Positions 18,045-60,708 of a DNA stretch of 64,000 nucleotides are shown here, one piece after another; within the stretch, counting starts at the first letter, position 1; each line of letters begins with the position of its first letter. Source of the stretch: Hymenopellis radicata (Eukaryota > Basidiomycota > Agaricomycetes > Agaricales > Physalacriaceae); assembly GCA_015501595.1 (NCBI GenBank), contig JADNRX010000029.1, positions 1-64,000 on the forward strand, in the 5' to 3' direction. The position numbers were made by a program, and so were the translations under genes. The notes beneath the pieces were generated by a model that was not told the origin of the DNA, did no database searches, and was given only the letters and a program-made list of their open reading frames with translations.

Positions 18045-18732
18045 TTAGAAGGATTGTCCACTTTGCAAGAGAACGGCGGCGATAAGGACTGGATGAAGAA
18101 GCCCGCCCTGTACAACGTCATTCGCAACCTCCAACTTGAAGCCGTTCTGCTGCCGCTTGAGTCTCGCCAAGAGGGTGGGGGACTTCACCTCTCCAGCCAG
18201 ATACATCTGTAGGGCCCAGTCAGCTACCGTCTCATCTGTGAAGTCGAACCTACCGATATCGCGCTACCCTCTATGATCCAGAGGTAGTCCGTGTTCTGAA
18301 CCTGCATGATGCGGTATCTAATGCGAGGATAATGAGTAAAGTAGAAGCGCGATCGGCAGGGAACATAACGCACTTGTGATCACCGGACAGCCTGAGGAAA
18401 GAACCGGCGGGTTGTTTTCGTACGACGTGGAGGACTTCGACTTGGCTGCCATCGGGTCGCCATTCGATTAGACCAATGTTCTTTCCCTCCTTGCCTCTCA
18501 GGATCGTGTATCCAGGCATGGAGGTATTCGTCGTAATCTGGAACTGCGGGTGATTGTTCGGGCCCAGAACAACACAGTTGAGGACAGACGGATTAAGCGA
18601 GGTGAAGGTGAAGGCAAGCAGCGGGAGCATGCGTCGTGAAGTGGAATACGGGAGAGCGCCGTAGATTGACGGAGGAGCCTCGGAGCCCCTGCAATCCGCA
18701 GGAGTCCCCCAGATGTTATAAGGATTCTGCAT
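18045..18732 (-). CDS. DUF6593-like mushroom protein with a frame break
   Basis: Function unknown; it resembles small beta-rich proteins (DUF6593 type) found in many copies in Agaricomycetes. The start is placed at MQNPYNIWGTPADC because PPSIYGALPYS then LLAFTFTSLNPSVLNCVVLG follows the family order; the next ATG (18630) is an alternative. Conserved pieces: PGYTILRGKEGKNIGLIEWR and GSFLRLSGDHK, then, after an intron, YRIMQVQNTDYLWIIEG. The last part, DETVADWALQMYLAGEVKSP and LLHPVLIAAVLLQSGQSF, lies in another frame. The two are joined either by an implausibly short 32-nt intron (18236-18267) or by one missing base near 18258. The reading frame is also open upstream to 19011, without family resemblance. 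It could be a functional gene with an assembly error or a young pseudogene. Confidence 0.6.
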
Positions 18733-20573
18733 GTCGCGCCGAAGAATGGAATGGAAAGGAAGGCCTAGAAATGATGACTTCCCACACAAGAGCACACTCA
18801 TTAAATACGCGGCCTCGAGAAGATTGAGACATATGCACAAGCGGCGATGGCAGATCATGTTGGCAGGCGCGCGGAGATGTCGGTAGCACAGTAATGGTAG
18901 TTTTGCACTGGAAGAAGAAGACGCTAGGTCACAGCATATCCAATAAAGTAGATGAACACCGGCGTTACAAGAGAGGATCGGCATCAGAGTCTCAGGACAA
19001 ACAGTGAACACACTGATCGGCGAAGGTCAACTCTCATCAACGCGGAAACTGAGATCCTTGGTACTGCTATCTGCGTTAAGCTATAGCTATTGCTATGGCG
19101 CTGTTCCGATGGCCATAACACAACGCATCATTGAGGGATTGCGCAACGGAGACGATGAGATCGCCGCCAAGTCGGGGAACGCAGTTTTTGAGACTAGATT
19201 CTGAAGGGGACCCGTATCCTCTACCAGTGTCAGTGAATCCATCAAAACACCATAGACGCGCCAAATACAGTGACTGAGATCCCGGACCTAGCAGTGGAAG
19301 AGGCCGTGTGATGAACAGAATCCAACGAGCCCCCACGGTCGCCAATAAGCCATTCGTTTGAGTAAATTGATGATCGGAAAGGCATTTCTGGCGTGGTCTT
19401 CTACATTCAATCAGCTTCTTTAAATAAACTGAACAAGGTCGCCACCAACTGCGTAGTCGAGAGCAACAGTCTCCAGTGAGATGGTGCCTGTATGCATACG
19501 GGCCCACTACTACCCACTAAGTAAAAAGTAGGTATAAATGGGATCCGGGGATCGTGGGCAAAGTTGATCCATATTGAGCAAAAACGGCCACGTTGTAACT
19601 GTCCCGAAAAGGACAAACGTCGAAAGAGGTAATTGAATAGAACTGTGAGGACGACATGTCCACCTCGAACCCCGAATCTAGAATCCGCGGTGTTTGCTGT
19701 CTACGTGTTAAATCAGCGCTGAAGAGCATAGCAGTAGTCGAAACGAACAATGCATCAGCAAAAGAAGCACGTCTAGTCAATAGCGGCATCACTACAAGCG
19801 ATCCTCGTGTTTGACGGAAAATGCATCTCCGTAGACCGTTAGGACAGAAAGTGAGCACTTGGAAAGACATGATAATCGTGACATACAAAGAAAAGAGGTG
19901 CTCCTTACTGGTTATAATCCTTCCCTTTTCGATATGTTGCTGTTTTCGTATTTACAACTGCACTCCGAGTTCCTTGTCGACGTCAAATAATCAACACAGC
20001 CAGAACGCGGCCCACCATCGCACAAGTCTGCGCTCATCGGCGAAAATGGACATAAGCACCGCTGGAGCGCCACGTTAGACGCCTTCTGGAGGTCATGAGT
20101 GTGTAATTACCGATACATGAGACGACGGATTTGAACGCTATTAAAGGCGGTGCTTGTTTGAGAATCGAGCATTCCATCCTGACGCGTTATGAGTCATTGA
20201 GCCGTAAGCAGTGGTTCGTATTAGGTTCGCCATCGAAAACCAAAGTGGAGTTGATTCTCGACATGTCATTAGTACTCAGTACACCTAAGGAAGAGTCAAC
20301 TGAAAAGAAGGAACGATGGGAATTCAATAGCTTTACGTTCCAAATCGCTCTCGGATGAATGCCAATATTCGGGCACTCGGATGCGATGAGTACTTGTTGT
20401 ACGGATGTAACTTACTCGTTTCGTTTCGGGCACACCAGGCCAGCGTAGGGAGTAATAATTATAAACATCCCGGTTGCTGATAGTATATGTTGGGTAAAGC
20501 GTCAAGAAAGCATCTAGAAAAATAAATTTTAGTTACGTAGCGCCCATAATTCAACAAACATTCACTCACTCTT
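18733..20573. other. Long stretch without a recognised gene
   Basis: About 1.8 kb between the DUF6593-like gene and TAPT1, both on the minus strand. Open frames of 60-143 codons occur on both strands (for example 19076-19507 and 19517-19888 on minus), but none shows a domain, a plausible splice chain or a compositional coding signal. An unknown fast-evolving gene cannot be excluded. No repeat or transposon ends are seen. Confidence 0.4.
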
Positions 20574-33372: not shown

Positions 33373-36300
33373 ATGGACGAAAAGCGGTTCAAGGTGAGAT
33401 GGGTATTTGCCTCAGCTCACAAACGCTGACATCTCTACAGTACCAATCCTATGCCAGCGAATTAAAAGACGTTCATCTTCCCTCAGCTTTGGACCAGTCG
33501 CAGCGAGACCATGATTTTGAGGTCGGCTTCTCTTGGATTAGAATATGTCTGTTTCCACTGAAGTCACATTCAGGATTCTGAATGCCAATTCCACGACGCA
33601 CTGCAACATTGGCGACAACTGAATTTGTCACCATCGTTCATCTCGTATGCAAACAAATCCCAGTCACTTTCCGCGTCACTTCCACTCCTTCTCCACAATT
33701 GGCGCGAGATAGTGGATCTATGGATATCGGCTCTGAATTCCTCTGATGACGAAGGCTTGAAGGCATTGCTAGAGTATGTCTAAACTCGTCCTACTGGCAG
33801 TACTAACTGCCCTTCCAGTATCCTCCAAAAACTGATAATTGACCTTCGGGGATCACTCGCACCTGCGTACTTGGATATTCTCGGTGCCCTCCTACGCCTT
33901 CTTCCCCGTTCAATATCTAGTGCCTCTCTAACGATACTCCTCTCAACACTTACGTTGTTCTTCAAACATCTGCTTGTTCCGTCAACGGACGGGGAGCTGT
34001 TAAATTCAACGTGGAGCTCTGTCCGGGGAGCACTGGGAAAATGTGTGCCAGAGGTTCAGCGCGCGATGGCGGAGGTGTGGGGAGCACTTCTCCGAAGACT
34101 GAAAATAGTTTCGCGCGAGAAGGCTGTCCTCTTGTCTGCGGGTGATCTTACCGGCGTAGAGGACGCAATTGCCTGGGTCTTTGTGTCGGCTTGCAAAGTG
34201 CGATATGCTCTCAAGCATTGCCTATATTATACTAATCCTTGACTAGTCCGTTTCACAAACTCTTCACACCACGACCCCAACAATCATCACGCCGCTTGTC
34301 GAGTATTACATATCATGCCCACAGGATGTCCAGGAACCTACTTATCACCTCATTCGACGCGTTCTCACTGCATTGATCCACCATGTTAAGAATGCCGCCG
34401 GATTTGCTCCCGTTGGAGACTTTCTCTGCCAAAAAGCTCTTACCCACAATCTAGATGGCGACGAGGAGGCTTTGCGAAGACTGCTCGAAGTTCTTTCCGT
34501 CGCCTGTTCGGTGAGGCATGGTTCCCGGATGTCAGGTAAGTGTTCATTCTTCCGTCATGAGCCAGTCTTGACATCCTGCTCTAGATAAACATCTTGCTGC
34601 GCTTCTGCCAACTCTGGATCGCATTTCGATCACTCCCTGCTCTTTCGCGGCTCTCCTTAAGCTGTCGACTGCCATTCTGGTCAGTACAACGGGCGATATG
34701 GGTCTCTGGATGGGAAGCGGTCGGCGCTTCCTTGAGCACATTTGGTCCCTTGTGACCAACGGTCAGCCTCTTCATCTGAAATTCGCTCTGGAGTTGCACG
34801 GCGTGCTTGTAGACATGAATTGGGGAGGCTGGAAGATGATAGCCCTACCGGTTTTGCTAAAGCGGAGCATCTCTTTGTTGGATAAAGATGCTTTAGGTGT
34901 TCTTCGACTATTTTCAAAAATCAACGAAGAGGGCAAGCTTGGTGAAGTGGACGTTGTTTGGAAACGCGGAATTGAAGCATGGCTGAAGGAGCATTCCGGC
35001 CTCGGGACCGGCTTGACGAACATAGTACGTATACGCTGCATTGAGACAACGATGGCATTTTCACATTCGCAATAGGGACTCGAGCTACATTTCGCGCTCA
35101 AGCTCTCGCCGTATCTATCACCCGACGTCACTTCGCTTGTGACTAACGCGATTGAACAATTGCTCTCAATGCCACCGGATTCTGTTTCTTCCCAACAACA
35201 GGAGCAGTCTCTTGGCCTCTTTTTGCGTTATGTGGCAAATAGACCGCAAGCCGAGTGGTCAAATCAGGTTAACATGTCTTCCTGGACCTCTCGCATTATA
35301 GCCCAGTGGTCCGGATCCTCAGTGATCTTAACCGCTTTAGTCGAGCTTAAACAGACAGGATTGGCCGAGTAGGTTACTTTTTCATTGTCTTTTGCCGTTG
35401 CTTATCTTCCCATGAGTTCCCCGTTGGCTTTTGACTTAGTGTATAACTCTCTGAGGGATTGTCTGCTCTCACACGACGCCGATCTTCGCCTCAGTGCTTT
35501 GCGGGTCCTTGCGACTTGCTCGGATGCACCGGAGGTCGTGCAAAGATGTCTAGTGGGCGAAGAGGTTTCTCTGGATGTACGAGGCGTTCGAGAAAGAGTT
35601 CTCAGGACGAGTCGAGTAACTCAGGTGAAAAAAACATCTTGCCTCCCATCGCCGTGACTGAAAATCATTTCAGGGTGCTATTCCGACAGAGCTTTCCGCT
35701 GAACTTTGTTCGAGATGGCTTCTCGCGCAATTGAAAGTCAATTTGAAGCCGCTTTGGAAACCAGCGGCTAATACCATCGCTGAAGTAGTTGAACTAGGCT
35801 GGGGTGAAACCGTATGGTCCCTGGTTTGGAACGAATTGCAGGCAACAAATCTGGCGCGCTCTATTGATTCTGGAGATGACGAAACTACCGAATGCACAGA
35901 GGAAGAGGACTGGGAGAGTGAACGGACGTGGAGGGATCCGTCCGCCCACAAGCTTCGAACTGTGATTCAAACATGGCAACAAGATGTTACGCAACATGAA
36001 CCGGGCTCAAAGGTAAGCTTCACTAGCTAATCCAGCACAATTGATACTCATTGTCATGATAGACAAAGGGCCTCTGTACTCGTTTCAGTGGCCGATCTTA
36101 CGCCCTCGAGTTGCTGAACGTTCTGGGCCAATGTCACTTGTTAACCGAAAAGCACAACAGGGACCTTGTACCATTCTTCTTGTCCATTACACCAACTCTT
36201 TATCAACAGCGTCAATACCTCGTTGCGTATCTCAATCTCTTCGCCAAATTTTCCAATCCTAAAGCTTTGTATTCCACCGACAAACTCCAAGTTTTCTATC

Positions 36301-39300
36301 TCGATGTCCTAGCCCATCCTGATCGCTCCCTGCAAACCGCTGCCCTCTCATGTCTCCTGGCATACAAAACTCCTGCCTTCGTGCAATGGCAGGAGAAGCT
36401 CCGCGCGTTACTTGATGAAACACGATGGCGCGATGAGCTCACTTCTTTGGATCTGAGTGAAGCCGCCTCAGAAATCACTAACGTCGTGATAAGGATGCTG
36501 TATGGCATCTTGTTGGAACGCAAGGGCAAATCGAGGAGAGGAAATGAGCGGCGAACAACTATTCTGGGCATCCTCGGAGCATGTACTGAAGAGGATCTTG
36601 GTGTCCTAGTTCGCTTGATGCTCAAACCTTTGGTGTCAGTGGACGGAAAGCACACCGTCGAGACGGACAAGCAGAGGATCGGTTTCCTGACCCTGTTAGA
36701 TGACGTCCTCAAGAATTTGGGCTCAAAGCTGGTAACTTACTGGCCGGACCTGCTGGGGAAAACCATTCAGCTCACGGGAGGAGCGCAGTCTCAGCTCGGT
36801 TCTGATGTTCAAGCTGAGGATGTGGAGCAAGAAGAGGGCGAAGGGACGTCCGCAGACGTAGGTCATGGAACGAAGACGATCAGAACCGTTCGACAGCTTG
36901 GGATCAAGCGATTCGCGGATTTCTTTCGCATCCCCGTCGAGTTCGACTTCGTTCCTTACCTGAAGTTGTCCTTCGACTCCTTCATTTCCCCACGCATACC
37001 ATTGATCGATGCGGAGAACATCCAATCTCCTTCCGCCCTTCTCGAACTCTTCGCCGTCTGGAGTCGTTCCGCCGTGTATGCACTGTATCTGGTCCAGCTC
37101 GACAACCGCCTCGTTCCCAAAATCTTCGACTGTCTCATAGCCAATAATGTCAAGCCAGTTGTCATCTCCAAGATTTTTGACATCGTTGAAACCCTGCTAT
37201 CACTTGGGGCTTCCGATTCGGCCGTTCTTGATTCAGTGGTGAAACCCAACATCGGCCATCTTCTGAGGAACATGTCGATCATGGCAGAGAGGATGAAGGG
37301 CGTCGACGACGGTCTGGCACAGCGACAAATCCATATTCTTTCCCAGATAGCTCATCATTCCACTAGTAGCGACGACGCGAAAACGCTCTTCAAGCTTTTC
37401 GCCCCGCTTCTGCGCAAATCCCATAAACTGGTGCCGGAAAAGGTCAAAGCAGACCTTCTTCAAATCATCTCTCACCTCATCCCTCTCATTCCCGAACTCT
37501 CAGACCCCACCTCCGATGATTACCTTCGACTATATATGGCGCTATCATCGTTATTCCAGAGTCTTCGTACGAGGACGGCGAGACTCAGTCTTGTAGCCGC
37601 ATTCCGAAGCCTTTCATTCGTCAATCTATCCTTGCGAGGTCTGGCCGATCTTTTGGAGGATCTCAATTCGTACTCTCAGAGACGGCTGGACGAGCCTGAC
37701 TTTGACAGACGTTTGAAAGGATTCGCTGCTTTAAATGAACTGAACGCGTCTCTATCTCTCCCCCACTGGACTGTTATCATCCAACATTCATTGAACAGTA
37801 TTCATGACCCAGAGGAGCTTGCCATACGAACCAGCTCAGCATCCGTTCTTCGCCTTTTCATTGATCTGGTTGCTTCCGGTCAAACCGCCGAGAGCGAATC
37901 CATCTTCACGCGAACGTTATTGGTTGGTTTGAAGAACGGTTTGCGATCAAAGAACGAGCTCGTTCGCTCCGAAATATTGGGAGTTTTGGCTTACTCTGTC
38001 CAGAAATGCACGCAGGTCAGTGCTGTGCAGGACATGCGCATGCTACTTGGGGATGGAGACGAAGAGGTCAATTTCTTCAACAACATACAACATGTGCAGA
38101 TTCACCGACGATCTCGAGCTCTTCGTCGTCTCGCAGATCAATGCGATGACCATCCGCTTCGGAGCGGCACACTGTCGGAAATCATCCTACCCTTAATCAG
38201 CAATTACATTGTCGCCACAACCTCGACTAATCATCACCTGGTCAATGACGCGATCACTGCTACCGGGAGACTCTCGAAGCACTTGGCTTGGGGTGCATAC
38301 CATGCTCTTGTTCAAAAGTACATGCGGTTATCGAAGATGAAGGACGAGGCGGAAAAGATTTACGTTCGCGCACTTGTCGCGCTTTTGGAAAACTTCCATT
38401 TTCCTATGGATATGGAAATCTCTCCACCAGAAGTGCAAGACGACGATGAAGCCGATGTAGAAATGGTACCCTCGTCTGTCGATTCCCGCGTAGCAAGTGC
38501 AGTCAACAATCGCTTGTTACCCGATCTGCTCAAGTTCATCGAGTCTCGCGATTCTACCACAGAGGACACTACTCGGATTCCTGTCGCCGTCGGGATCATT
38601 GCGGTGGCCAAGCACTTGCCCCGTCGACCCGAGAGTCTCAAGTCACAAGACTTCTTACGGTTACGAGCCAAGTCCTTCGCAGTAGGTCCCAAGAAACTAG
38701 GGACCTTACACGCGAGACCATGGTGCAGATTGCAATAGCACTTGGGCCGTCTTACCTGCATTTGATGATCCAAGAGCTTCGTGGTGCCCTGTTACGTGGG
38801 CCGCATCTTCACATTCTCGCATACACGACGCACGCCCTACTGACCCATGTCACCTCGCCTGAACATGCGTCGGTCTTCCACACCCTAGACAGCTGTGTCG
38901 CCCATGTCGCCCATGTAGCTGCAGAAGTCATATTCGGAGAATCCGGAAAGGACGTCCAGTCGGAGGATTTCAAGACTAAAATGCGCGAAGTCCGTGGCTC
39001 TTCATCGAAAGGCTTCGATTCTTTTGCGATCATGGCGAAGCATATTACACCGCCGTACCTTAGCGCCCTTCTTGTCCCTTTGCGCTCCATATTGCACGAG
39101 ACAGCGAGCTCCAAGGTTCTGGGCTTAGTTGACGAGACATTGAAGCGGATTTCGTCGGGTCTCAACCTGAATCAGCACCTTGTGTCCGAACAGTTACTGT
39201 CCGTTTGTCACGCCCTCATCAGTCAAAACTCGCAGTTTTTGAAAGAGGCGCCGTTCCGTCGCAAACCCAAAGCGAAAAAGGATGATGCTATTGTCCAGGT

Positions 39301-41537
39301 GAAGCGCGAAGCAACAGGCGCCAATGATCACTATGCTAACAACTCCTTTCGGTATGTGTCTGGTATTTCCGATCCTTTTCATGTCTAAACGTTCATTACA
39401 GCTTCATCGTTCTTGGGCTTGATCTTTTCCAAACTGCCTTGCGCCGGAATAGATTTGATTTTCATGAAGCTGGCATCGTCTCTCGACTGGAGTCCATGCT
39501 TGTAGCTGTTGGCAACTCGCTGTATTCCAGTAATGCCCCAGTCCTCGTCATGAGCTTGAAGTGTATATCGGTCCTGGTGAAATGCCCATTGCGATCGTGG
39601 GGCAAATCCCTTCCGGTTCTCGTTCGACAAACGCTCGACATAATAAAGTCCACCGGGAGTGCGGAATCGGAACTTGCACAAGCGGCTTTGAAGGCGTTAG
39701 CCGTCGTTCTACGAGATGGCCCACCCGTAGATGTCAAAGAGAAGGATCTGGTCTTCTTGCTGCAGCTCATTTCCCCAGATCTCGAAGAACCTGCCCGCCA
39801 GGCGACGGTTTTTGCCATGCTTCGTGCTATCGTCTCTCGAAAGTTCGTTGTGGTGGAAATATACGACATAATGGAGAAGGTTTCGGAAGTCATGGTGACC
39901 AATCACTCTGCCCAAGTGCAGGAGCTATGTCGAGGAGTCCTCCTTCAATTCTTGTTAGACTATCCCCAGGGCAAGGGGCGTCTTCGGAGCCAGATGTCCT
40001 TCTTGGCTACAAATTTGTCCTATGTCTACGAAAGTGGGAGGAAATCGGTCATGGAGCTGCTGGGTGCCGTGATCACGAAATTCCAGTCCAACCTAGTTCA
40101 GGAATACGCCGACCTCTTGTTCGTTTCCTTGGTCATGGTTGTTGCCAACGATGATTCCTCCAAATGCGTTGACATTGCTTCACAACTCATTCAATCTCTC
40201 CTGTCGCGACTGGACGAAGACCGACGTTCAGCGATTGTATCCCACTTACATACTTGGGCCTCTCAGAACGAACGTCTCCGGCTTTCTCAGGTTTCATTAC
40301 AACTCTACGGGATCTTCATCGATGCTCTGGACAGCGGATGCGCGGACCACATGACAGTTATCCTTCAAGATGCAAATCAGGCATTGCAGGTCTCAGCACA
40401 ACAACTTGAAGAAGCCGAAGGGGATGATTCTATGGAGGTGGATTTGGATTGGCAATCTCCTTATCACTCTCTTCTTGTCGTATCGAAGGCCCTCAAGGTT
40501 TCTCCAAACCTAGCGACAGACCCGCATTCGATACAATGGCCATCCGTCGTAACCCTCCTTCTGTTTCCTCATCCATGGGTTCGGACTGCTGCCAGTCGAT
40601 TGCTCGGCGTATTATACGCCTCTGGCACGATTACAGCGCCTGGTCAACCCGATTCTGAAGTTGCCCTGTATCCTTTGTCCATGGTAGGCATGTTGGACGT
40701 CGCGAGGAAGTCGGCTTTGCAACTCAAAAGTCCTCATCTGGATGAAGCTCTCAGCGTCCAGATTGTAAAAAACCTTTTTTTCTTAGGCAAGTGTTTTGCT
40801 AGTGCATCGCCAGTTACGGAGGATGGCGATCGTATAAACGAAGATGGAGACGATGAAGAAGAAGAACAGGCACCAGATAATCCATTGCCTTGGTTATTTT
40901 CCAAGTTGTCTTATCAAGTTCGTTCGGCACACATTGCGCGCCGGAATCATCGACAATCGCAGGTTAATAGTTTTGTATTCACGTATCCTTCTTCTCACGA
41001 TCTTTGTAGAAGAGTTGGGGACATGAACCGTTGGCCGTGCTGCGATGGTTTGCCGCAATGACAAACTATCTAGAAGCTTCAAAGGTAGAACGATTCCTGG
41101 TTCATATCCTTTCGCCTCTATATCGGATCCTTGAAGACGACACTATTCGGGATGCACAAATGGGTACGTGGCAAGGCGTGTATCTCAGACCTTACTCATG
41201 ATGATCTTCTTCAGACGAGCTTAAGACCGTGTCGACCGAACTTCAAGACCTCATCCAGTCCAAGGTCGGCGTGACAGCATTCTCCACGATTTACAACCAA
41301 GTTCGGCAAGGTGTGATAGGTGTGAGGCGGGAGAGGAAAACGCTTCGCGCCCTTCAAGTGGCCACAAATCCCGCTGCTGCTGCTAAAAGGAAGGTTCAGA
41401 AGAACCTCATGAAGAAGGACAACCGTAAACGAAAAAACGAGTCATTCGCGTAAGTCTCATAAGGCAAAATCACCCGCCAGTGCTCAATCTAGCTTTGCAG
41501 CGATCGTCGAGGAAGTGTCAAACGATACAGACAATAG
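33373..41537 (+). CDS. UTP20: U3 snoRNA-associated protein UTP20 (SSU processome)
   Basis: Very large HEAT-repeat scaffold of the small-subunit processome, nucleolar, essential in yeast. Exon 1 codes MDEKRFK, then YQSYASELKDVHLPSALDQS. Helical repeats fill the protein. The best family matches are in the middle (LNVLGQCHLLTEKHNRDLVP, RRTTILGILGACTEEDLGVL, IKRFADFFRIPVEFDFVPYL) and later (GPSYLHLMIQELRGALLRGP, HLHILAYTTHALLTHVTSP). The C-terminus is basic: KRKVQKNLMKKDNRKRKNE, then a last exon ending FADRRGSVKRYRQ at 41537. About 15 introns; size about 2,500 residues, near yeast Utp20. One frame break falls at a CCCC run, 38619-38622: AKHLP in one frame continues as ESQVTRLLTVTSQVLRSRSQ and ETRDLTRETMVQIAIALGP in the frame that needs one more base. 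A real break in this gene is unlikely to be tolerated, so an assembly error is my reading. Confidence 0.92.
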
Positions 41538-44087: not shown

Positions 44088-45010
44088 CTACTCATAGCGT
44101 CGACGATGATCTCGAGAGTGTGTTCCTCTGTCAACCGTCATCTCCCGAACAAGAAACTCGTCCACCTCTTTCACAATTGCAGCTGCTTCGCCAGTTAGAC
44201 CACGCTGATCAGTTGGCGCGTGGATATGCACCGCCTTGGAAGCCTGGGCGCCGCCTCGCTGTTGCCCGCCCCATTGGTGAGCTACTGGTCCAGGACGGAC
44301 ATGCGCCTGCGCACGATTCCTTGGTGACTCTTTCAGCGGCACGCGGTTCAAAGGCAGATATTCGTCGGGAAGCTTTGGCACGCGAGGGATAGCGCGCGCC
44401 TCTGCTGGTGCGGAGGTAAGGGCTTCGAAAAGCGGGAATGAAGGCGCTGTCGGGGCTCCTGGGATTTGTCGTTGACGCTTGTCGACGACGGCGAATTCAA
44501 GCGGTTGGTACGATGGACGATGGCAGGAGTCGAGGAATTAGAATGCTTCAGAGGAAAGGCTGGCGTCCTTCCCCGCGATCCCGAGCCAGAAGTCGGTGAC
44601 GGGGACCGGTGACTTACGCCATTTCCCATATAACCTCGAGGAGCAGGAGTAGAGGTGTAGCTACTGGCATACATGTCGATGAGATCGCCATAGTCATCAT
44701 CATCGTCCATGATGTCGTTTGGCACGGTCTGATCCCCGACTGCGGTATGGGTAACAAAGCGCTGGTAGCTTTTCTGGTTGGTTGTGACTTGAGGCTTCGA
44801 TGGGTCATAAGACATCGCAAGATACGAGTCGTTCTGATTCTGTAGGGTAATAGGCCCAGAAATGGGATAATTTCGAAGAGGCATGGACTTTGTGTGTTTT
44901 AAGGCGCGTTGACCGGGATCCCTTGAAAGTAGTATCAGCACCAGTATTAAATGCAAATGCAGCTAGGCTTACTTTTTGTGAACTCCGAATGCGTTGCGAA
45001 TGCGCTGCAT
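44088..45010 (-). CDS. Unknown Ser/Pro-rich protein with a frame change
   Basis: Not recognised as a named family. Exon 1 is MQRIRNAFGVHKK (ATG at 45010), spliced in phase to DPGQRALKHTKSMPLRNYPI. The middle is disordered: FVTHTAVGDQTVPNDIMDDD, DLIDMYASSYTS, HRSPSPTSGSGSRGRTPAFP. The C-terminal part, SYQPLEFAVVDKRQRQIPG, FPLFEALTSAPAEARAIPR, KLPDEYLPLNRVPLKESPRN and a tail ending VDRGTHSRDHRRRYE, lies in another frame. Either an intron with the good donor GTAAGT near 44615 skips a segment, or one base is missing around 44480-44550. The second gives the more continuous protein and matches the same one-base pattern in neighbouring genes. The regularly spaced acidic DDDDDYGDLID motif suggests a short interaction site. 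Location and role unknown. Confidence 0.5.
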
Positions 45011-45810: not shown

Positions 45811-47381
45811 ATGCCCATCTTTACGATTTCGATCGAGGACTATTCTCCCTTGATATCCTATAGTCCTGTTCCTCCTTGGCGGCCTGGAAAAAGTGACGGT
45901 GATTCTCTCTTCGACAAGTAGGGCTCATTTCAACCACTGCACGACTGATACTGACGGTAAATAGATACTCTGACAACTCTTTCACCCTTTCAGACACCAA
46001 CGGATCTACAGCGTTGTTCTCGTTCAATGGCACATCAGTCAGAATATATGGTGCCAAGCGAGGCAACCATGGAGACTACCAGGTTACTGTAGATGGCAAA
46101 GACTACCCTCCGATGTCTGGGACAGCCAATGAATCGACATTCGAATCAACTGAGGTCCTCTTTACCGCTACCCTGGACCCTGGTCTCCATAACGTCTCAG
46201 TGGTCAATCTTGGAAGTGCAGACCCCAAGCTCCAATTTTTCGACATTGATTTTGTGAGCCCAGCTGTTGAGAGTCTCCTCAAGTCACTGATTCAATGCCA
46301 TTCTGCGCCTCAGGTCGAATGGGACACATTTATTGACGGCGAAGATGGGCCAATTGTCGATACCGTGCAGGACACGGACGCTGCATTCTCATATTCCCCG
46401 GTTTCTGCCTGGGACAACAATACAGAACACTCAGGTTTTTTCATGGGCCTGACCGGACAGTGAGTCTTTCTGGTAGTTCATAGGTCCAATTACAATCCGC
46501 CTTCGTGCAGCACATCAAGTCAGTCAAGTTCGTTCTTCGCCTTATCGTTTTCGGTGTGTATACTGTCGACGGAAATCGCAACTCAGATTAACATTCGTAC
46601 AGGGGATTGGCGTTTCGCTCTTCGGACCAATAGGACCCGACTGTGGAAACTACGTGGTCGAACTTGACGGAGGCCCCGGGGAAATATTCTCAGCCAGCAA
46701 CGTTAAGTTTAGACCGCAGGTTCCACTCTATCATGCTGTTGGTCTTCCATCAGGCCCTCATAGCCTCAAAGTGACCAGCCTGTCTACCTCGGCTGGTGCA
46801 AAAACACTTGCTATTGACTACGCGAATGTTTTCAGACATCCCGCAAGTGAATCTGCGTGAGTCTTATCTATTCGAGTTACTTTCATCCCATTATCGCTTT
46901 CGATTCAGAAATCCAGATTCCGGTAGCAGTGGGTAGGTGCTAGGTTCTATCTGAACGATAGCAATTCTTTGACCTGCTGGTAGATTGTCCCCAGCTACGT
47001 TGGGCGGTGTCATATTCGCTGCTGTTGTTGTTTTGGTGGCCTCGGCCTCGGCCTCTTTCTGTACATTCGACGTCGACGAAAATCAGCTCATAACGAGACA
47101 CCTTCCAACTCGCCGCAGATATCTGGATCAAGTCTCGGATACACTCCATATATGCTACAAAACCCGACTCAACAACGTGAAGTTGCGCAAACAATTACGT
47201 CTTAAACAGCGGGTAGTTCCAAGGTCCAATAACGTTCTTATAATTCTAGCAGATCATGCCAAATAACTATTCTAATAGGTCAAATACGTCGAGTGCTGGA
47301 GAGTCCTCCGTTCCAGGACAGCAGGTTGGATCTCCTGTAGAGCTTCCTCCTCCTCAGTATTATGATGATATGAATGTGTAG
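45811..47381 (+). CDS. Mushroom-type single-pass membrane protein with two beta-rich outer domains
   Basis: Role unknown, probably at the cell surface. The family is common in Agaricomycetes: two related extracellular modules, one membrane helix, and a polar tail. It starts MPIFTISIEDYSPLISYSPV. Module 1 has YSDNSFTLSDTNGSTALFSF, NGTSVRIYGAKRGNHGDYQV and LHNVSVVNLGS; module 2 has AAFSYSPVSAWDNN, GIGVSLFGPIGPDCGNYVV and GPHSLKVTSLST. The helix is LGGVIFAAVVVLVASASAS. Directly after it the frame breaks at 47054-47060: the expected stop-transfer LYIRRRRKSAHNETPSNSPQ lies in the frame reached by adding one base. The end, reached from either frame by different splicing, is VELPPPQYYDDMNV. One 60-nt intron (46254-46313) is stop-free and in frame. 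N-glycosylation sites (NGT, NVS, NES) fit an outside location. There is no classical signal peptide. Confidence 0.7.
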
Positions 47382-47723: not shown

Positions 47724-49087
47724 ATGACCTCGACTGCACAGAGCACTGAAGCCGCCACAGTCACCAAGTTCCTTACCCCCGAAGTCGCATCGTATTTCAT
47801 CGGTACCCCATCTTTTTTCTGACGGCGACGACCCGCTTATTGCTACAATAGCGGGAGGATGTGCTGGTGCAGCATCGCGCACTGTGGTCAGCCCCCTAGA
47901 GAGATTAAAGATCATACAGTGAGTGCATCCGAATAACAAAATCGCGTTCAAAAAGTCGACCTTGTCTTGCAGACAAGTACAACCACAATCATCCAACCAA
48001 CAGTATAAAGGCGTATGGCGCAGCCTCGTTCGTATGTGGCAAGAAGAGGGCTTCCGAGGTTATATGCGTGGCAATGGTATCAATTGTCTGCGCATCGTAC
48101 CGTATAGGTGAGTGTTCCACGAGTTCATCGACTTCTCCTGCTTATTGTTAGTGCCGTGCAGTTTACAACCTACGAGCAGCTCAAAAAGGTGAGTATTGAC
48201 CCCTCTGAATTGCGCGTCCTGACGTCATGAACTAGTGGTTTACCCAACACGGTACCCGAGAACTGGATACACCAAAACGACTCGCCAGTGGTGCACTGGC
48301 AGGAATCACATCCGTTTGCTCGACATACCCCTAGACCTCGTTCGCGCCCGACTATCCATTGCGACAGCATCTATACCAGTCTCCATACAAGAGAACACCA
48401 AACCTAGCATGTCATCATCCGAACCTCTCCGAGCTGCCTATCATACAGCGGCGCGCCCATCAAACTACACCGCTGCAGAAATGACAATATGGGGCATGAC
48501 TTTGAAGATTATACGCGAGGAAGGCGGCATTCGCGGTCTGTATCGGGGTTTGGTTGCCACAGCCGTTGGTGTCGCACCTTATGTTGGGATCAACTTCGCG
48601 GCGTACGAGCTACTCCGTGGTATCCTGACACCTCCTGGTCAAAGCAGTGTTCCCCGGAAACTCGCGTGTGGCGCTCTTGCCGGTGCGGATGGCCACTGTT
48701 ACTGTAGAGATTGGCGCTGACTGTCTTTTTCCAGGTACAATATCACAAAGTTTGACGTATCCTTTTGACGTTTTGCGTCGCAAGATGCAGGTCACGGGAA
48801 TGAAGTCAAGTGGACTTGGTATCCAGTACACAGGTGCGTTTGATGCGTTGAGGGGCATCATTCGCAAGGAAGGCGTTCGGGGGTTGTATAGAGGCCTCTG
48901 GCCGAATCTTTGTAAGTGTTTCGTACTGGTCTCGATGAAGATATAGGCGCTCATGTGGTCTAGTGAAAGTTGCGCCGAGCATTGCTACTTCGTTCTTTAC
49001 ATATGAGTTGGTACGTGTGCTTATCTCGGGGGCAAATGAGGTCCGCTGATATGCTCTCAGGTGAAAGATTTCCTGGTCCCATCATAA
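47724..49087 (+). CDS. Mitochondrial carrier (SLC25 family), frame break
   Basis: Inner-membrane solute carrier with three repeats. The closest types from memory are the CoA/adenine nucleotide carriers (human SLC25A42, yeast YPR011C), but substrate cannot be fixed. Start MTSTAQSTEAATVTKFLTPE. Repeat 1: AGGCAGAASRTVVSPLERLK (PxExxK variant of the carrier signature) and RGNGINCLRIVPYSAVQF. Repeat 2: ASGALAGITSVCSTYP, then PLDLVRARLSIATAS, GLYRGLVATAVGVAPYVGI. Repeat 3: CGALAGTISQSLTYPFDVL, RRKMQVTG, GLYRGLWPNLLKVAPS. End ELVKDFLVPS. The repeat-2 signature is broken at 48328-48331: ACATACCCCTAG reads a stop, while one more C restores TYPLDLVRAR. With such a conserved motif on both sides, a missing C in the sequence is the simplest cause; a new pseudogene is the alternative. 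Seven or eight introns join in phase. Confidence 0.85.
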
Positions 49088-49557: not shown

Positions 49558-52500
49558 ATGCCTTCCGAGCCAAAGTATGGGCCTGTGCATTCAGGCTGGC
49601 CTGACGTGAATAGCTCCTCTCTATCCTCTTCACCTTCTACCTCTCTATCTTCCTCATTCTCGTCCTCCGCAGCTTCGCATATGCCTTCTCAGGACTCCAG
49701 TCAGTCTGAGATTCATATTACGGATCATTCGGCGCCTCTACCAACCCATCCTCATGTCCGCAACCTGGCTCTGGTTCCCTCCCGTCCACGCTCATCATCT
49801 CTTGCCGCGATGGGGCAGAATTTCAGCGGGGCCCCGTCGCAGGCGAACCCTACGGCGCCGTCGTCCCAGCTACACAAGGGAATCGCGGCAGCCACTGCGA
49901 CCGGTATGAAGCTGAAACGTGCGTTTGCCGGTAGACGGAAGAATAAGTCCGAGGACGCTACCAAATTGTTCTCTGCCCAAGGAAAGGACTACTTCACGGA
50001 CTCGGAGCTCGTTACCCCTGTTTCTACAGCGTCGACGTCGAGAGAGGTGAAGCCTCACGATCATATATGGGGAAAAGGAACTAAGATGACCTTGCAGTTG
50101 GCGCAACAAGTATTCCATGGCCGTAGGAGGTCGTCGGAGCAGAGGTCCGCCGCACAACCATCACATACTCCCCGCGTACGCCACCACCGCCACCTCCAAA
50201 ACCCATCGCAATGCAGGCCGCCGCCACCAAGGTCGTATCCCCACCGTCGCCTCTCCACATACCGAGCGCGGATCCAAGAGGTTCAATCATCGCCGTCAGT
50301 CCAGGTATATCCTCTGCGCTCAACTACATGCGCATGGGAGACCAGGATAAGGACCAGGACAAGACGAACACCCACAAGGCGGACAACTCAGACCGGGAGA
50401 AGGGTGAACAGAAGGAGGCCTGGCGCAAAAGCGATTCCACCATGAGCCATCACACTATACGACCCGGAGCCGCCCCTGGAACACGCGCGTCTCGTCCAGT
50501 TTCGATGGCGGAGTCTTTGCAGTCCATTCATACCATTGTACCCGTCAACAAGCGGCTCAGTGCGCTCATATCGGACGCTGATTTTGCGACACCAGAGGAG
50601 GAGCCCTCATCCACGTCGCCTGCTCTTCGCGAGCTGGTTACGCCGCCCAAATCCTCCCCTACCAACTCATTAAAGGCTCGCAACCGCCGCTCAATGTCTC
50701 TAAATCTGGGACCCACTTTCGCCAAGATTTACGTTCCTCCGTCATCAGCAACCGCGGCTGTTGTATCTGACGCTAAATATTCATCCAAGTCATTTGACGA
50801 GACCCACCCGCGCCTGCCACCTTCTGTATTGCAATTGCAGGAAACGCCGACGCTTACACGAGCAGCTGCCAATGGTATCATATCGCCATCTAGTCCTGGA
50901 TTGCAATCAACTGGTAACAACATTCGCGGTCGTTTGGCCGCCTGGTCAGCTACGAATACTGCACTTCCATCTCAGCGCAGCCTTCCTCCACCTCCACCCC
51001 GCCATTCGCCTGCAAACAGTTCTCCATCACGACACTCCCCAACCCCACCTCCTTCTTCCCGTCAGCCAACTGTCAGTATGACCGGTGGGTTTGGCCTTGC
51101 CAAACGCGCGGTTGAGAAGATGAATCGAGCCTGGGGCGGGTTTTCATCAGGATCAAGCAACTCTTCGTCATCCAGCACAGCACCTTCCTCGTACTCCGAC
51201 CACAATCTGGCAAGAATTAGCTCAAACCAATCTGGCCTTGGTCGTAATGGGAAGAAGTCTCGAAGAACTCCTGATGCACCGTCAGGCGCGTGGAGTGTCA
51301 ATTCTGCTACCTCCTCGATCTCAGATTCAGATGTCTTCATGACTCCTCCGGGTCCTTATTTGGGCAAACAGTTGCGCGGCCCTATGCGTACCAAGAGTGG
51401 AGGTGGCGGCGGCGGCGCCGTGGGTGGTATTGTCTTCGGCCGTGATCTCAAGAGTGTTACCAGAGAGACAGCTGTCGGCGTTGGTGTACAGTTCAGCGCC
51501 GCCGACTTGGACAGGGTATTGGGACCAGACCGAATTGGAATTGTTGACAAAAATCACCTACAAATGCTGGAAAAGCGGATGTTACCCGCGATTGTGGTTC
51601 GTTGCGCGCAGCATCTTCTATTGTGGGGGATACAAGAGGAAGGTCTCTTTCGGTGCGTCAAAGTTATCCTTAACCGCAATCTTAGTTAAATCTGCGTACA
51701 GCGTTTCTGGTCGTCCTTCACATGTCAACAAATTACGTGCCGATTTTGACACTGGTTAGTTTTCGTTAACTGCACATGCTGATACTCAACTCATCGATAT
51801 AGGGGCGGATTTTGACATGACTGAATGTTCCCCTGGTGAACTGGATCCCCATGCCGTTGCGTCCGTTTTCAAGGCCTTCCTACGCGAACGTAAGCGTCAG
51901 ATTACCTTCCCCGTTAAACGAATGCTAATTACGTTCACTAGTCCCTGAACCCATTCTAACGCATGCTCTACTACCTTACTTTGAGGCTGCTTTAACACAG
52001 GAAAATGCTTCTAATCCGCAGGCATCGTCAGCTTCCACTGGTGCGCGCGTTGGTGGCCGAGGGCCTACACTTCCTTCAGGCCCTCGGATTGGATTACGGA
52101 AACCGCCATCATTGTCCACTCTGGCTATGCCAAGTTTCGCTGGCATGCGTCCCCCCTCGCGTTCTTTGATCAATGCTTTCAAGTCGCTGCTTTCCCAGCT
52201 TCCACCAGAGAATAAGGACCTTATCCGCACAGTCACAGAACTCATCAAAGCTACTGCGATTGACAGCAAGGCCACAAAAATGCCGTTGAGCAATCTTCTT
52301 TTGGTGTTCTGTCCGAGCTTGAACATGAATCCACCCCTATTGAAGATTCTTTGCGAAGCCGAGGACATTTGGGATGCTATGCCATTGGATTCGCCTGTTC
52401 TCGATATCAAACGAGAAAGTGTCATCCTTGACATCAGCGCGCCTTCTACTGCTCAACCTCTCGTACATGACTCCCACCGCGGTATCGACGCGAACACTCC

Positions 52501-53704
52501 AGTGGAGGAAGAACGACCATCACTTGAAAAGGGCGAACGTCCACTGCCGAGCGCCAATTCCTTTGATCGCACTGCCAGAGCCAGACCAATGGGCCCAAGG
52601 CGCCATGTACCAGCTGCCGTTTTCGGAGAGTCTGTCGTTTCGTTTGACGATTCAACTCACCGGTCAGTTTCACCGCGGTCCATCGCCGCCACGTCTTCAG
52701 ATACGAAGTCCATCTCAGATGATGTGTCGTCGCATGACTCGATTTCGGAGGGTCACTCTATGACTTCCCCTCTATCACGCCTAGGTGTTTCTTCTCCACC
52801 ACCATTATCGTCATCCTCGGAATCTCTAGTGACACCGTCCAGTTCTTCTGCGAATCCATCCCTAACCGACATTCCTTTCATAAATGATCCCTACATGAAG
52901 CCGGAACCAGTCACATGCCCAATCATCGCCAGCTCGTCCGACCTTGCACTGAACATGGGAAACATCAGTGGACCCGTCCAGTTTCCTCTTTCAGATGAAA
53001 GTGACCAAATGGCCGTGCCCTCTCCTCGGAGGTCAATACCACTTATATCGCTTCCTGGTCGTTGCTCCAACCCTCCGTCACCTTCAGGGTCTCTCCCTGG
53101 GTCCCCTCGCCGCCGACTGAAGAAGCCGTCATTAACACTTCTCTTTTCCAAGCGGTCGGCATCCTCATTGACCTCCTCGCCAGGTGGGCGGCCCTACATA
53201 TCCTCTCCATATCTACAAACTTCAGCCTCTGATTCATCCATTTCTACCCCCATATCTGCCATTACTGCACCTCAGTCTCACTCCCCGAAGCCAGTTCCTG
53301 TTCTAGATACCACCATCGAATCTCCCTCTCTACGTCTCAGCATGGGTTTAGACGCTTCTCCTCCTAGTGAGACGTTGGAACACCAAATAGAGCACCCCAA
53401 CCCGCCAGAGGCTTTGAGCGATGCGCCATCTCTATCAGCGCGTTCCGGCCCAACGCCCATTGCGGATCACTATCGTTCAGTGTCGACTACGACACTACCA
53501 ATACTGTCTCCCGGTGAACAGCCATCACATCTCCGACCGAAACCTACTCGTAACGCTTCCAACGCCTCTGTCCTGTCGACGGCATCCTCCAATCACCTTG
53601 GAATACTGGATGACGACGAAGATCAAGAGGACTGGACGCAGAGTGTGCTCATGGCCGCTGATGCTGACGGACCATGGACGTTGCCGTACTCAACCACAAA
53701 GTGA
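49558..53704 (+). CDS. RhoGAP domain protein with long Ser/Pro-rich flanks
   Basis: Likely GTPase-activating protein that switches off Rho-type GTPases controlling polarity, actin and wall growth. The protein is about 1,300 residues. The N-terminal 650 are Ser/Pro-rich, starting MPSEPKYGPVHSGWPDVNSS. The RhoGAP core (about 51380-52370) has FGRDLKSVTRETAVGVGVQF, MLPAIVVRCAQHLLLWGIQE, GLFRVSGRPSHVNKLRADFD with the arginine finger in GLFR, SVFKAFLRELPEPILTHALL, and MPLSNLLLVFCPSLNMNPPL near its end. The core has an insert (QENASNPQASSASTGARVGG and following), longer than usual. The tail is again low complexity and ends WTLPYSTTK. Frame break at 50170-50173: QPSHTP in one frame, RTPPPPPPKPIAMQAAATKV in the frame needing one more C in the CCCC run. 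All three core introns join in phase. Confidence 0.85.
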
Positions 53705-54051: not shown

Positions 54052-57000
54052 ATGGCCTCTGATACGATCAAGAAAGTGCAGGACAAGCTCTTTCGCGGCG
54101 CCGGCGCCGACGCGACGCCCCCGCCATCGTCGGAACGTGAGCCAGGCTTGACGATTAACATTCCAAAGCCCAGCAGTTCTCCTGTTCCCCCGCCTAAGCT
54201 TTTCAAGGCCGCAGAGTCGGGTGCCAACCCCAATCTCGCAGAGCAGGCCTCTTACCGTGAGCGTCTCGCCGCCCAACTCGGCGCAGAGTACAACGGAGTC
54301 GAAAGACATCGGCTGGTGCAAGATGTCAATAAGGAGAAACACTGGAAGCGCTTTGGCCCGTACCTTAGTGACAGGCAATGGGTATGTGCATCGTCATTTC
54401 CGCGCTCCATCGTATTGAACACGCATATATGCGCTTTTTAGGCTACAGTTCGCGAAGATTACTCGGGTAATGGTGATGCCTGGAGTCATTTCCCCACGAG
54501 CATGCTCGCTCTCGTGCATATCGCTGGGGCGAAGATGGTATTGCTGGCATATCAGACAACCATCAGCGCCTCTGCTTTGCTCTCTCGTTTTGGAACGGAG
54601 AGGACCCCATCCTCAAGGAGCGTCTTTTTGGTGTCACTGGTCATCAAGGCAACCATGGCGAGGATGTGAAGGAACTCTACTATTATCTCGACTCGACCCC
54701 TACGCATTCATACATGAAATTCCTTTACAAGTATCCCCAGCGCCGTTATCCGTATGAGGAACTGGTCACTGAGAACCAGAACCGAGGTCGCGATGTATCA
54801 GAGTTCGAAATCTTGGACACGGACGCGTTTGATGAGGACCGCTATTGGGACATCTTTGTCGAGGTAAATCTTTATAGTTCTTTCAACGTCGTTGTCTTAC
54901 TTAACCCTCCTCAGTATGCCAAGGATGAGGACGATCCGGATAACGTTTACGTTCGCATCACCAGCTACAACCGAGGTCCTGACCCAGCCACCCTTCATAT
55001 CATCCCTCAGTTCTGGTTCCCAAACACCTGGTCATGGCCTCTCGAGAAGCCGCCGATGCCCTCAATGAGCGCATCGACCCGGAACGATATCAATTGCATC
55101 ACTGCGAAGCATCCTGAGCTCCACAAAACGCATCTCTACTGTCTTCCTTCTCCGCCTCCAGTTGGGCCCTCTGGCAACTTTATTGGGGACCCTGATGATG
55201 TCATAGAGCCCGACTTGCTCTTCACCGAGAACAACACGAACTTCAGCAGGTTGTATGGTGGACAGAACGAAACTCCCTACGTGAAGGACGCGTTCCATGA
55301 CCACATCATTCCCTCCCATCGCCCTCCCGCGTCCGATTCTCAAGAGGACTTCTTCTCGCGGAGAATTAGAACGCGTACGGCATCGTCCTTCGGTGCCCCG
55401 CTGCCCGAGGAACGAGAGCAGGGCCCATGTACACCTTTCCCAGCTGGTCCGACCTATGTGAACCCCGACAAGACGGGAACCAAGTCTGCCGCACACTATA
55501 CTTTCCGTGATGTTCCTGGTCAAGGCGGTTGCGTTGTTGTACGGCTTAAAATGACGCCACTCTCTGCACGCAAAGATCCGAGTGTCATGGACGAAGGACT
55601 ATTCGATGATACCGTGGAGGCGCGTCGCCAGGAAGCTGACGAATTTTACAATTCATTCGTCTTTGGACCAATCAGTGACGACCTGAAACAGATCATGAGG
55701 CAGGCGCTCGGCGGCATGCTCTGGACGAAGCAGTATTACCAGTTTATCCAAAGCGAGTGGATTGCAGGTGATCCCGCTCAGCCAGCTCCTCCCCCAGAAC
55801 GGAAATTCATCCGGAATCGCGTACGTTTTTTGATAACTTCACTGGAGTTTGCTCATTGGATTTTCAGGAATGGCGACACATGCATGTAGCTGACGTTCTG
55901 TCCATGCCCGATAAGTAAGCATTCGTCTTCGTCCCAGACAAAATGGTATTCAGATATTTAGGTGGGAATACCCTTTCTTCGCTGCGTGGGATTCCGCCTT
56001 CCATTGTATTCCCCTTGCCGTCGTCGACCCAGCCTTCGCGAAGAAGCAGCTTGACCTGCTCACCCGTGAATGGTACATGAAACCTGATGGTCAGATTCCT
56101 GCGTACGAATGGAACTTTAGCGACGTCAATCCTCCTGTTCACGCTTGGTGAGCATGACTATCACCGAAGGCATTTAGCTTTTACTCAGTAAACAACTCAT
56201 AGGGCGACTTTCCGTGTTTTCAAAATTGAGCGCAAGCTTCACGGTACAGAAGATTTAGGCTTCCTGGAGCGTGTTTTCCAAAAGCTGCTCCTTAATTTCA
56301 CTTGGTAAATTTCTCATGCTTATGTTGCCTCGCCTAATGCCACGTTTTCAGGTGGGTAAACCGCAAGGATCAAGGTGGCAACAACGTCTTCGAGGGAGGC
56401 TTCCTTGGTTTGGACAATATTGGCGCGTTCAACCGATCAGAACCACTTCCTACTGGAGGCGTCTTACGTCAAGCCGACGGAACTGCTTGGATGGCATTCT
56501 ATTGTCTCAACATGTTCGTATACACAGCTCTTGACATCTTCTTCGATTGACCGTTGTGACAGGTTAAACATGGCCCTTGAGCTCGCCAAACATAATCCAG
56601 TTTATGAGGATATTGCTTCCAAATTCTTCGAGGTTAGGTTTGATCGTGATCCTTGAACGCTATTCTGATTTACATCCAGCACTTCATCTTTATTGCGGAC
56701 GCCATGACCTACAAAGAGGGTGATGATGAGTTCAGTCTGTGGAATGAACAGGATGGAATGTACTACGATGCCATCCAGTTCGGTCCCGGCAATTCCATGC
56801 AGCTACCTGTTAGAAGTCTCGTCGGTCTCATTCCTCTTTATGCGACACTAGTCTTAGAACCGGCTACTTTGAACCGGTTCCCGGGTTTCAAGAAGCGTGT
56901 AGAATGGTTTATCGACAATCGTCCCGAGGTCGCGGCGCGCAACATGGCCAACATGAAAGGTCCGCCTTCTAGATCTTGTGTATCTTGCCGTCACTCATGC

Positions 57001-58119
57001 ACTCGTATTCTAGTTCGTGGTAAGGACGAACGCAGGTTGATGGCTTTGGCCAGCAAGGAGCGTCTAGTGCAGATATTGGAGAAGATGTTGGACGAAGACG
57101 AGTTTTTGAGTGAACATGGAATTCGTTCGTAAGTCTTGTCGTGGATTGTCACCTACTTCTGGCTTATTTCTCCAGTTTGTCCAAACTGCATCAGGAACAG
57201 CCATGGGGCATGGATGTGAACGGTCAGCGCTATGAGGTGAACTACTGGCCCGGCGATTCGTTGTCCGGAATGTTTGGTGGCAATTCCAACTGGAGGGGAC
57301 CTATTTGTACGTGCTGCCCTACTCCTCATGACTGAAATACTGAGATTCCCTCAGGGTTAGCCACGAACTTTTTGCTGATCGAGAGCTTGCAGAGATTCTA
57401 TCAATACTACGGTGATGAACTTCAGGTGAGACTCAGCGTATTGTCTCTCTTTCCACCACAACATAAAATTTATAGGTTGAATGCCCTACTGGCAGCGGAG
57501 ACTACATGAACCTTGCCGGTGTCGCGGAAGAGATCCAGCATCGAATCATTCATATCTTCGGTCGCGACATGCAAGGCAAACGAGCGACAAACGGTGGTGT
57601 GACTAAGCTTGATCATGACCCTCATTTCCGGGACTACGTCTGGTTCTACGAGGTATGTGATGTCGTTGCATGTTGACGCTGGACTCACTTTCATCTGACA
57701 GTTCTTCCACGCCGATAACGGCAAAGGTCTTGGCGCATCCCATCAGACGGGCTGGTGAGTTCCTCGAGGTATTCCTGAATGAAAGCTGAAACTACTGTGT
57801 TCGTTCCTTAGGTCTGGGTTAGTGGCGTACCACATTCTGCAGAGCGGGGTTACCTGCCGCTTGCCGAAAACTCCGAAGAGTAAGCGGTCTTGCTTATATG
57901 GATGTGTAAGACGCTAACTTTGCATCCAGCTCCTCGTAGTCTCGCTCACCATTACTTCGATGTGAGTCTCAACCGCACTGTGACTAGGCGTTGCTCATTT
58001 GTTATTAGGAAACGATTGATTCTCGGTCTGAGTTTGGCGACGACGCGAAGTCTGCTTTCAGCGCCATGAGCAGCTTCGACCGAAACACCCTTGGTGACTT
58101 GTCCCCTGATGCTTTGTAG
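54052..58119 (+). CDS. Glycoside hydrolase family 63-type protein (MGH1-like)
   Basis: Predicted sugar hydrolase. Mushroom proteins of this type are placed in GH63 and carry a mannosylglycerate-hydrolase-like domain; the substrate is not known. No signal peptide, so probably cytosolic. Start [20 protein letters not shown]; then [75 protein letters not shown] and [20 protein letters not shown]. In the (alpha/alpha)6 part: [111 protein letters not shown]. The end is [11 protein letters not shown] at 58119. About 18 short introns. Frame break at 54492-54495 between SHFP and HEHARS: one extra C in the CCCC run restores the conserved stretch, so a sequence error is likely. Confidence 0.88.
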
Positions 58120-58300
58120 AAATGGACTGTTTTATGTTGTAAACTACGCTGTATACCTCAAAAGTCTGTACACTATACTATTCACGATAGATACACACCG
58201 AAACACATGTAACCTGTAATACCCGCATATCAGATCAGTAATAGACACGATACTTGTTTGCAAGTGGGGATCGCAGTCATGCGAGCAGAGAATGAACTTG

Positions 58301-58800: not shown

Positions 58801-59732
58801 AGAACCTGCATGGGAACCAACGGGTGTCTTCTGATCCCATATCCGCCTATCATACATCATTGGATACCAACTGTGCCAATGCCATGTTGGTGCAGTGATC
58901 TCCCATATGGATGTCGAGACCGCATACGACGTACTACAGTATTATGGGAGCAAGAAGAACTATCTTGATAAATGCGCATCACGGACAGAGAAATAGCTAT
59001 TCAGTCGATCGCGTATAGGATATGACGGATCATGCATGATGGCGGGGCCCGTAATACTAACAGGTCACAGCTCTGAAGAAGGCTCTCCCAGCTTCTCCTA
59101 GGCGAGCACAGGCGAAGGTTAGGCGATAATGTTCAGGTTGAAGTTGAGAGGAGACGTACGTGGGAATTTTTTGGCAGAATCAAAACTTTACGATCGTTGC
59201 GGCGTTCAGTTTTCTACGGTACTGTGATTGACAAGTTCCTTTCATCGCACATCTTCGAGTTCAACATTCAACAATGGGGTTCATGTCAACGATCTGTCTG
59301 GTACTGCTATCTTCGGCTATGTAATACGAGGCGCTGCCTAATCAATCGGGGTTTCACGAAAGCATCGCCTCAACTCGACAAAACTTCTCTTCCATCAGCT
59401 GGGATTCTCGGGCATGACCTTCTATGATAACGAATTCCGCCTGTTATTGACCACCGTTATGACCTTGAAACGGTGCTTTACTTGGGAGCTTCGGGCGTAC
59501 TCTTGTCTGCAAATTTCCAATCCGGGAGGTGCACAGGACTGAGATCCAGCCTCGACCCTGTGCTCTCTGTGGCTGATACATATAATATATTTCGACCTGC
59601 CTGGTTTCATTTCTTCTTCTTTTCCCTCGGTGACTTGTACGCTGTCGCGGTCGATAGTAAGTCTCCTCGCGTCTCAACTAGATATTCATTGAACCACCCT
59701 GCCAGATTTCTCGCCCGGCTCCCTCTAATTAA
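58801..59732. other. Region without a recognised gene
   Basis: About 930 bp with no supported coding region. The left part would hold the promoter of the degenerate minus-strand fragment. Short plus-strand frames at 59197-59427 and 59473-59751 have no domain. The second runs up to the start of the next membrane protein, so a missed 5' exon of that gene could lie here. Confidence 0.35.
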
Positions 59733-60708
59733 ATGGCCCCTTCACGCTTAACGTTACGCGCCAGTAATACCCCACCTCCGAAGGACGCATCCTTGACGCA
59801 AGATGCCAAAATCGCGCTCATTTCAGGAATAGTCGCTGGCATTGCCGGAATAATCCTCGGTATTTTTGTCATTCGTGCGGTCTTGCGCAACAGGAGGAAC
59901 AGAAACAGAAGGAGGGAAGCTATACCGCGCTTGCTCGGGGCCCACTACTCTTCCGGCGGGCATGCACGCAACCAAAGCACGATGGAGCACCTAATTCCCG
60001 ATGGGCCCCATCGCCGGGAGGACTCGCAAGGGTACGTCTATGAGACGACTTCCGGCTCTTATATATCGCAGTCGTGGTCGGATACTACGACGCGCTATTC
60101 TCGTGCCGTGTCTTATGACGACCCCAGTATCTCCCGCGCGCGGCACCATACAGGGAGCCCTCCGTCGCAAACGATCTTGTCCCAGTACGCTCGATGTCTG
60201 GGAGCATGTATGAGATCAATGACGCGTTCCCCATCCCGTCCTCCCCTCCCGAGCGCCGATCAATGCATAGCAGCCCGAAATGTCTTCCCCGTCTAATCAT
60301 CCCCAACGCTGCTGTGGTGCCAAAATCAGCCGTTGCGGTGTCCGTTTCAAATTCAGAGCCTGTGCCAGCAGGCGGTTCCGCGAAATCATCCGCGTCAGCT
60401 TACTCGCAGACGTCCGCGGGGAGCGTCGGGAGTATCAAGTCTCCAATGAGGTCCTGCCGCCAGTTCCTCCCGTACCGGATTACATCGTGGTGAATGCGCA
60501 CGCGTCGGAGGAAGGTGCGCCTTTAGGGAGAGCCGATACCGTTGCGATTGCGTCTTTGTTGCAGGAGCGCGCTCAGAGGATGTCGGGGGTGTCACGCGCC
60601 GCTAGCCATGTTTCACGCATCGAGAGATGGGATTCGGTTAAGCACGGAAACGCATACTTGCCCGAGAGTCCCGGCGGCACGCTCTTGCCACCGCCTGAAA
60701 GCTCATAG
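59733..60708 (+). CDS. Single-pass membrane protein with Ser/Pro-rich tail, two frame changes
   Basis: Role unknown. The ATG at 59733 gives a short outer part (MAPSRLTLRASNTPPPKDAS), a Gly/Ile-rich helix IALISGIVAGIAGIILGIFV and a strong stop-transfer RNRRNRNRRREAIPRLLGA. The tail is polar with YVYETTSGSYISQSW. It continues in a second frame from about 60150-60195 (DLVPVRSMSGSMYEINDAFP, IPSSPPERRSMHSSPK, SAYSQTSAGSVGSIKSP) and in a third from about 60440 (NEVLPPVPPVPDYIVVNAHA, VSRAASHVSRIERWDSVKHG), ending GGTLLPPPESS at 60708. Each jump is to the frame reached by adding one base; no splice pair explains them. The Gly/Ile-rich helix plus Arg-rich anchor and Ser/Pro tail matches the ending of the mushroom membrane family at 45811, so a missing extracellular part upstream is possible. 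Confidence 0.5.

Follow-up and report, generated by a model that had tools for sequence, protein, structure and literature searches.

In programmed -1 ribosomal frameshifting, reading changes at a slippery heptamer that lies in the zero frame. The frame breaks described in the present study resemble this system in the net minus-one reading at a run, and such a heptamer was found in the zero frame at one of four proven sites, that of a GH63-like gene. They differ from it in that the site and the change of frame are not common to relatives, which read on in one frame, in that three of the sites have no heptamer, and in that the genes concerned are unrelated.

A second described system is technical in nature. 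As far as the available text of the report on the Drechmeria coniospora nanopore assemblies goes, homopolymer errors break reading frames in fungal assemblies built from long reads only (PMC7500977), and the available parts of two further reports describe, for bacteria and small genomes assembled from long reads, errors of homopolymer length and errors that break genes (PMC8812927, PMC12007338). The likeness to the D. coniospora assemblies lies in homopolymer indels that break the frames of conserved genes, the pieces of which are still found by similarity; the differences are that polishing left more insertions than deletions according to the available text on that fungus (PMC7500977), whereas the cases polarised here are mostly deletions, and that the platform used here is one that we infer from contigs of up to 933 kb, haplotype duplicates, and the type of error. 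Length differences free of substitutions, a location in homopolymers, a lean towards deletions, and a spread over several contigs, which mark consensus errors, were all found in the assembly analyzed here.

Materials and Methods

The window analyzed in the present study is a stretch of 64 kb at the start of contig C618, which measures 286 kb, in a genome assembly of 75.5 Mb and 1,405 contigs. Mushroom-type fungi, Marasmius and Amanita among them, supplied the best named matches of its GH63-like gene.

Proteins of relatives were aligned to the DNA with a custom local protein-to-DNA aligner, in which an intron costs 14 and a frame break costs 22. The references for UTP20, the GH63-like gene, and the RhoGAP gene were the best 120 relatives listed per gene, taken from a database search. 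In the filter for shared breaks away from the sites, each flank had to have 8 or more identical residues out of 20. A codon-usage model was also run for frame breaks at several break costs; it was rejected as an arbiter for the genes at 18, 44, 47, and 60 kb, having no power there and mis-solving the proven cases. Eight duplicated contig pairs were compared. Paralogue open reading frames were tried and discarded as references for aldehyde dehydrogenase (ALDH) and sugar transporter genes, being noisy and with wrong-frame reading frames among the matches, and one clean ALDH reference was used instead.

Results

Four Proven Frame Breaks on CCCC Runs

The earlier note on this DNA had claimed breaks of the same sign in at least eight genes, four of them on CCCC runs. 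The part that stood comprises four of nine breaks (in four of eight genes), those of UTP20, a mitochondrial carrier, the RhoGAP gene, and the GH63-like gene, while the others are retained as candidates. All four proven breaks lie on CCCC runs of the plus strand, at 38619, 48328, 50170, and 54492 as had been proposed, and all are one base short.

UTP20, which is essential in yeast, aligned with its relative P0108 over 1,478 codons at 36096..40725 (plus strand), with one break and two introns. The short CCCC run, recognized from relatives and from Pfam frames, is at 38619..38622, and the break was present in all 119 of the site-spanning relatives among the best 120 listed. Pfam placed UTP20_N at 36063-38735 and the next UTP20 domain at 38450-39385, in different frames. 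Identity to the relatives was 0.53 before the break and 0.63 after it (n = 119). No other break in UTP20 passed the filter among the best 120 relatives listed, and a second UTP20 copy was not found in the genome, for which one candidate was scored.

The GH63-like gene, of the six-hairpin glycosidase type, aligned with P0121 over 717 codons at 54052..56520 (plus strand), with six introns and one break. Its CCCC run, one base short by comparison with relatives, is at 54492..54495; the aligner put the break at 54485-54491, adjoining the run. Sixteen of 17 site-spanning relatives among the best 120 listed gave the break and one gave none; in an initial check of ten relatives, eight had it and two started downstream of it. 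Against P0121 and P0123, 18 to 20 of 20 residues were identical on each side of the break, and the identity to relatives was 0.56 before and 0.89 after it (n = 3). No solved structure matched the GH63-like piece; elsewhere in the window, an SMC3 piece matched SMC3 chains in solved structures. Contig C642 carries a copy, with 98% identity (156/160), of 160 bases of the GH63-like gene (L052, window positions 55760-55919).

In the RhoGAP gene, the short CCCC run at 50170..50173 (plus strand) was recognized from P0241 and other relatives. P0241, the closest of the RhoGAP relatives listed, has an uninterrupted frame and aligned over 721 codons at 49558..51686 (plus strand) with one break, placed at 50171, and 656 identical residues. 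Among the best 120 relatives listed, 91 spanned the site, 39 with an F-1 change, 20 with F+2, and 32 with none; since F-1 and F+2 lead to the same net frame, 59 of these 91 agree. Distant relatives carry little information here because the region is of low complexity, and identity to relatives was 0.29 before the break and 0.42 after it (n = 87).

The carrier break, on the CCCC run at 48328..48331 (plus strand), was established by a Pfam read-through: carrier repeat 2 scored 71.4 bits over profile positions 3-93 when read across the break and 47.8 bits over positions 46-92 in a single frame. The carriers of this genome itself were too distant to span the break.

Away from these sites, no break passing the filter was common to more than two of the 120 best relatives listed for UTP20, the GH63-like gene, or the RhoGAP gene. 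Weak extra breaks in the initial check of GH63-like relatives, each with a single relative, were F-2 at 57378 (P0141), F+1 at 56309 (P0172), and F+1 at 54211 (P0128). The alignments of the three genes with P0108, P0121, and P0241 contained no second break within approximately 2,900 aligned codons; the rate is 3 breaks in 2,916 aligned codons, or approximately one per 2.9 kb.

Candidate Breaks and Other Features of the Window

Five further breaks, in four genes, remain candidates, all recognized by eye and judged by eye to be of the same sign as the proven ones. The candidate in the DUF6593-like gene (18243..18265, minus strand), for which frames were compared, raised the Pfam score from 22.1 to 24.5 bits when read across, below the cut-off of 27, and the codon-usage model favors an intron there. 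For the candidate in the 44-kb gene (44395..44425, minus strand), the model sets an F-1 change near 44502, at the lowest break cost only and without power in this gene. The candidate in the 47-kb membrane protein (47035..47060, plus strand) and the two in the 60-kb membrane protein (60115..60160 and 60435..60450, plus strand) gave no signal in the model, which has no power here either. Pfam searches with pieces of these genes yielded no family above the cut-off. Introns may account for the candidates outside the four proven breaks. THI6, at 11-13 kb, had been considered as a further broken gene and was dropped, appearing intact with introns by eye.

The stretch at 42198-43540 has matches with 66-74% identity on several other contigs and represents a dispersed repeat or a gene family. 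A search of the genome with the 41-61 kb part of the window returned 15 matches and no long near-identical copy of these 20 kb; the match of the window to itself was also absent from that list, which shows the search to be less than exhaustive.

Base and Length of the Runs

In the four gene regions sampled, introns included, C runs of at least four account for 141 of 11,719 bases (1.2%), against four of four proven breaks. A and T runs of at least five exist in the same regions, yet carry no proven break. On contigs C713 and C1162, gaps affect other bases besides C, and the restriction of the four proven breaks in the window to C may be coincidental or come from a preference of the chemistry for certain bases (n = 4).

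A general collapse of long C and G runs was rejected, since 40 runs of at least five C or G persist in the window. In the window, a proportion of 0.155 of the C runs and 0.177 of the G runs of at least four reach at least five, against 0.223 and 0.207 at the preceding step; the corresponding values on the other contigs are 0.173 and 0.210, against 0.190 and 0.210. The shortfall of the window at the step to five is absent for A and T. This shortage is weak support for lost bases.

Duplicated Contigs and Other Loci

The pair C567/C1162 showed 0 mismatches over 3,328 aligned bases; its one-base gaps numbered 4 and 14, 3 further gaps were longer, and 9 of the 18 one-base gaps lie within runs of at least two. 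Indels without substitutions, as in this pair, are not expected from natural divergence. When the RhoGAP region of the window served as a third copy, over 348 bp, three one-base deletions and one one-base insertion fell to C1162 and none to C567; thus, the polarised changes of C1162 are deletion-biased, but not purely so. The RhoGAP piece in question (L049 and L050, window positions 52465-52812 and 53025-53062) has its copies on these two contigs at 92-93% identity, and the copies, which lack the 212 bases that separate these parts, form a dispersed gene fragment.

In the last 2 kb of C713 compared with C474, 14 gaps of 1-2 bases were found, all 14 in C713 and none in C474. In the comparison of the pair C713/C474, 11 of 13 one-base gaps are in runs of at least two. 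Seven of the eight pairs carry substitutions and are allele-like (9 to 89 mismatches), and the one-base gaps present in both copies of several allele-like pairs could be natural. One duplicate pair is gap-free across 1,371 bp, and the quality of the assembly is therefore uneven. Duplicated allele-like contigs were kept in the assembly, and so its 75.5 Mb exceeds the haploid size. Gene-family matches were also often paired on two contigs (C766/C752, C902/C521, C713/C474, C223/C1296, C456/C723, C380/C851, and C312/C463).

On C641, an ALDH gene shows an F-1 break, at an identity of 75/91, that is absent from seven other ALDH loci, which include two duplicate pairs (four loci). The sugar-transporter references gave introns only on C474, and on C713 a weak F+1 change with one of four references, to which no weight was given. 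Errors of the same type occur on C641, C713, and C1162 besides the window, as counted at a few loci.

Discussion

The breaks are almost certainly artefacts, namely, deletion-biased consensus errors of a draft assembly of the long-read type, to judge from the sequence comparisons. This was the explanation favored in the earlier note, and it is borne out by the intact frames of relatives, by the 18 one-base gaps against 0 mismatches in C567/C1162, and by the position of 14 of 14 gaps in the end of C713. The error reading gains in particular because the duplicated contigs differ by one-base gaps, which is independent of protein homology. Short homopolymers, C runs in the proven cases of the window, would have been written one base short, and the loss of one base would shift the frame of genes that relatives keep intact. 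A consensus built from noisy long reads would have under-called run length, near a contig end at C713 and in duplicated sequence at C567/C1162. This presupposes noisy long reads, absent or incomplete polishing, and a common cause for the breaks of the window and the differences between duplicate contigs, all of which we infer. Points against an error are the 40 long C and G runs that are left, the gap-free pair, the gaps on both sides of several allele-like pairs, the insertion in C1162, the confinement of the breaks to C, and the excess of insertions after polishing in D. coniospora.

The DNA may, in principle, be right and the frame restored by -1 ribosomal slippage on C runs or by one base added to the mRNA in transcriptional slippage or editing, and the presence of four of four proven breaks on CCCC with one sign, as well as the canonical slippery heptamer at the GH63 site, agrees with this. 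The claim that only the GH63 site has such a heptamer was upheld for the proven sites (one of four) when the codons were read and the heptamer rule was applied, and its absence from the three others speaks against slippage. Moreover, relatives keep a single frame (119 of 119 for UTP20 and 16 of 17 for the GH63-like gene), one-base gaps set substitution-free duplicate contigs apart at the level of the DNA itself, and slippage or editing would be required in four unrelated genes within 64 kb, which makes this explanation very improbable. Its stronger form, in which the four C runs are correct and slippage in RNA or translation, or editing by one-base insertion, operates in many nuclear genes, is exceedingly improbable; if it were true, the differences between duplicate contigs would be a separate matter.

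Real mutations, in decaying genes or in broken alleles of the strain, deserve consideration in a genome with duplicated allele-like contigs, in which an intact allele could mask a broken one. They would have to have struck UTP20, a gene indispensable to yeast, of which the single candidate scored provided no second copy, and to have left similarity that persists past the breaks, one sign, C runs only, and some 2,900 aligned codons free of a second break; we regard them as highly unlikely. That introns have been misread as frame changes is hardly credible, even though short introns abound in these genes, the codon-usage model hides the GH63 and RhoGAP breaks in introns (and that of UTP20 at a higher break cost only), and the aligner chose an intron at 50047-50129 for P0251, one of the 32 RhoGAP relatives with no break, since the break (cost 22) was chosen over the cheaper intron (cost 14) in 119 of 119 UTP20 and 16 of 17 GH63-like relatives and P0241 conserves the residues that would fall within the RhoGAP intron, 17 of 20 on either side of the break.

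With consensus error as the preferred explanation, users of this assembly are warned that its gene models are not to be trusted before polishing. If the break rate of the three aligned genes, from which this is an extrapolation, is typical, a large part of the gene models would be cut short or acquire false introns, and error would be indistinguishable from genuine pseudogenes, alleles, or recoding.
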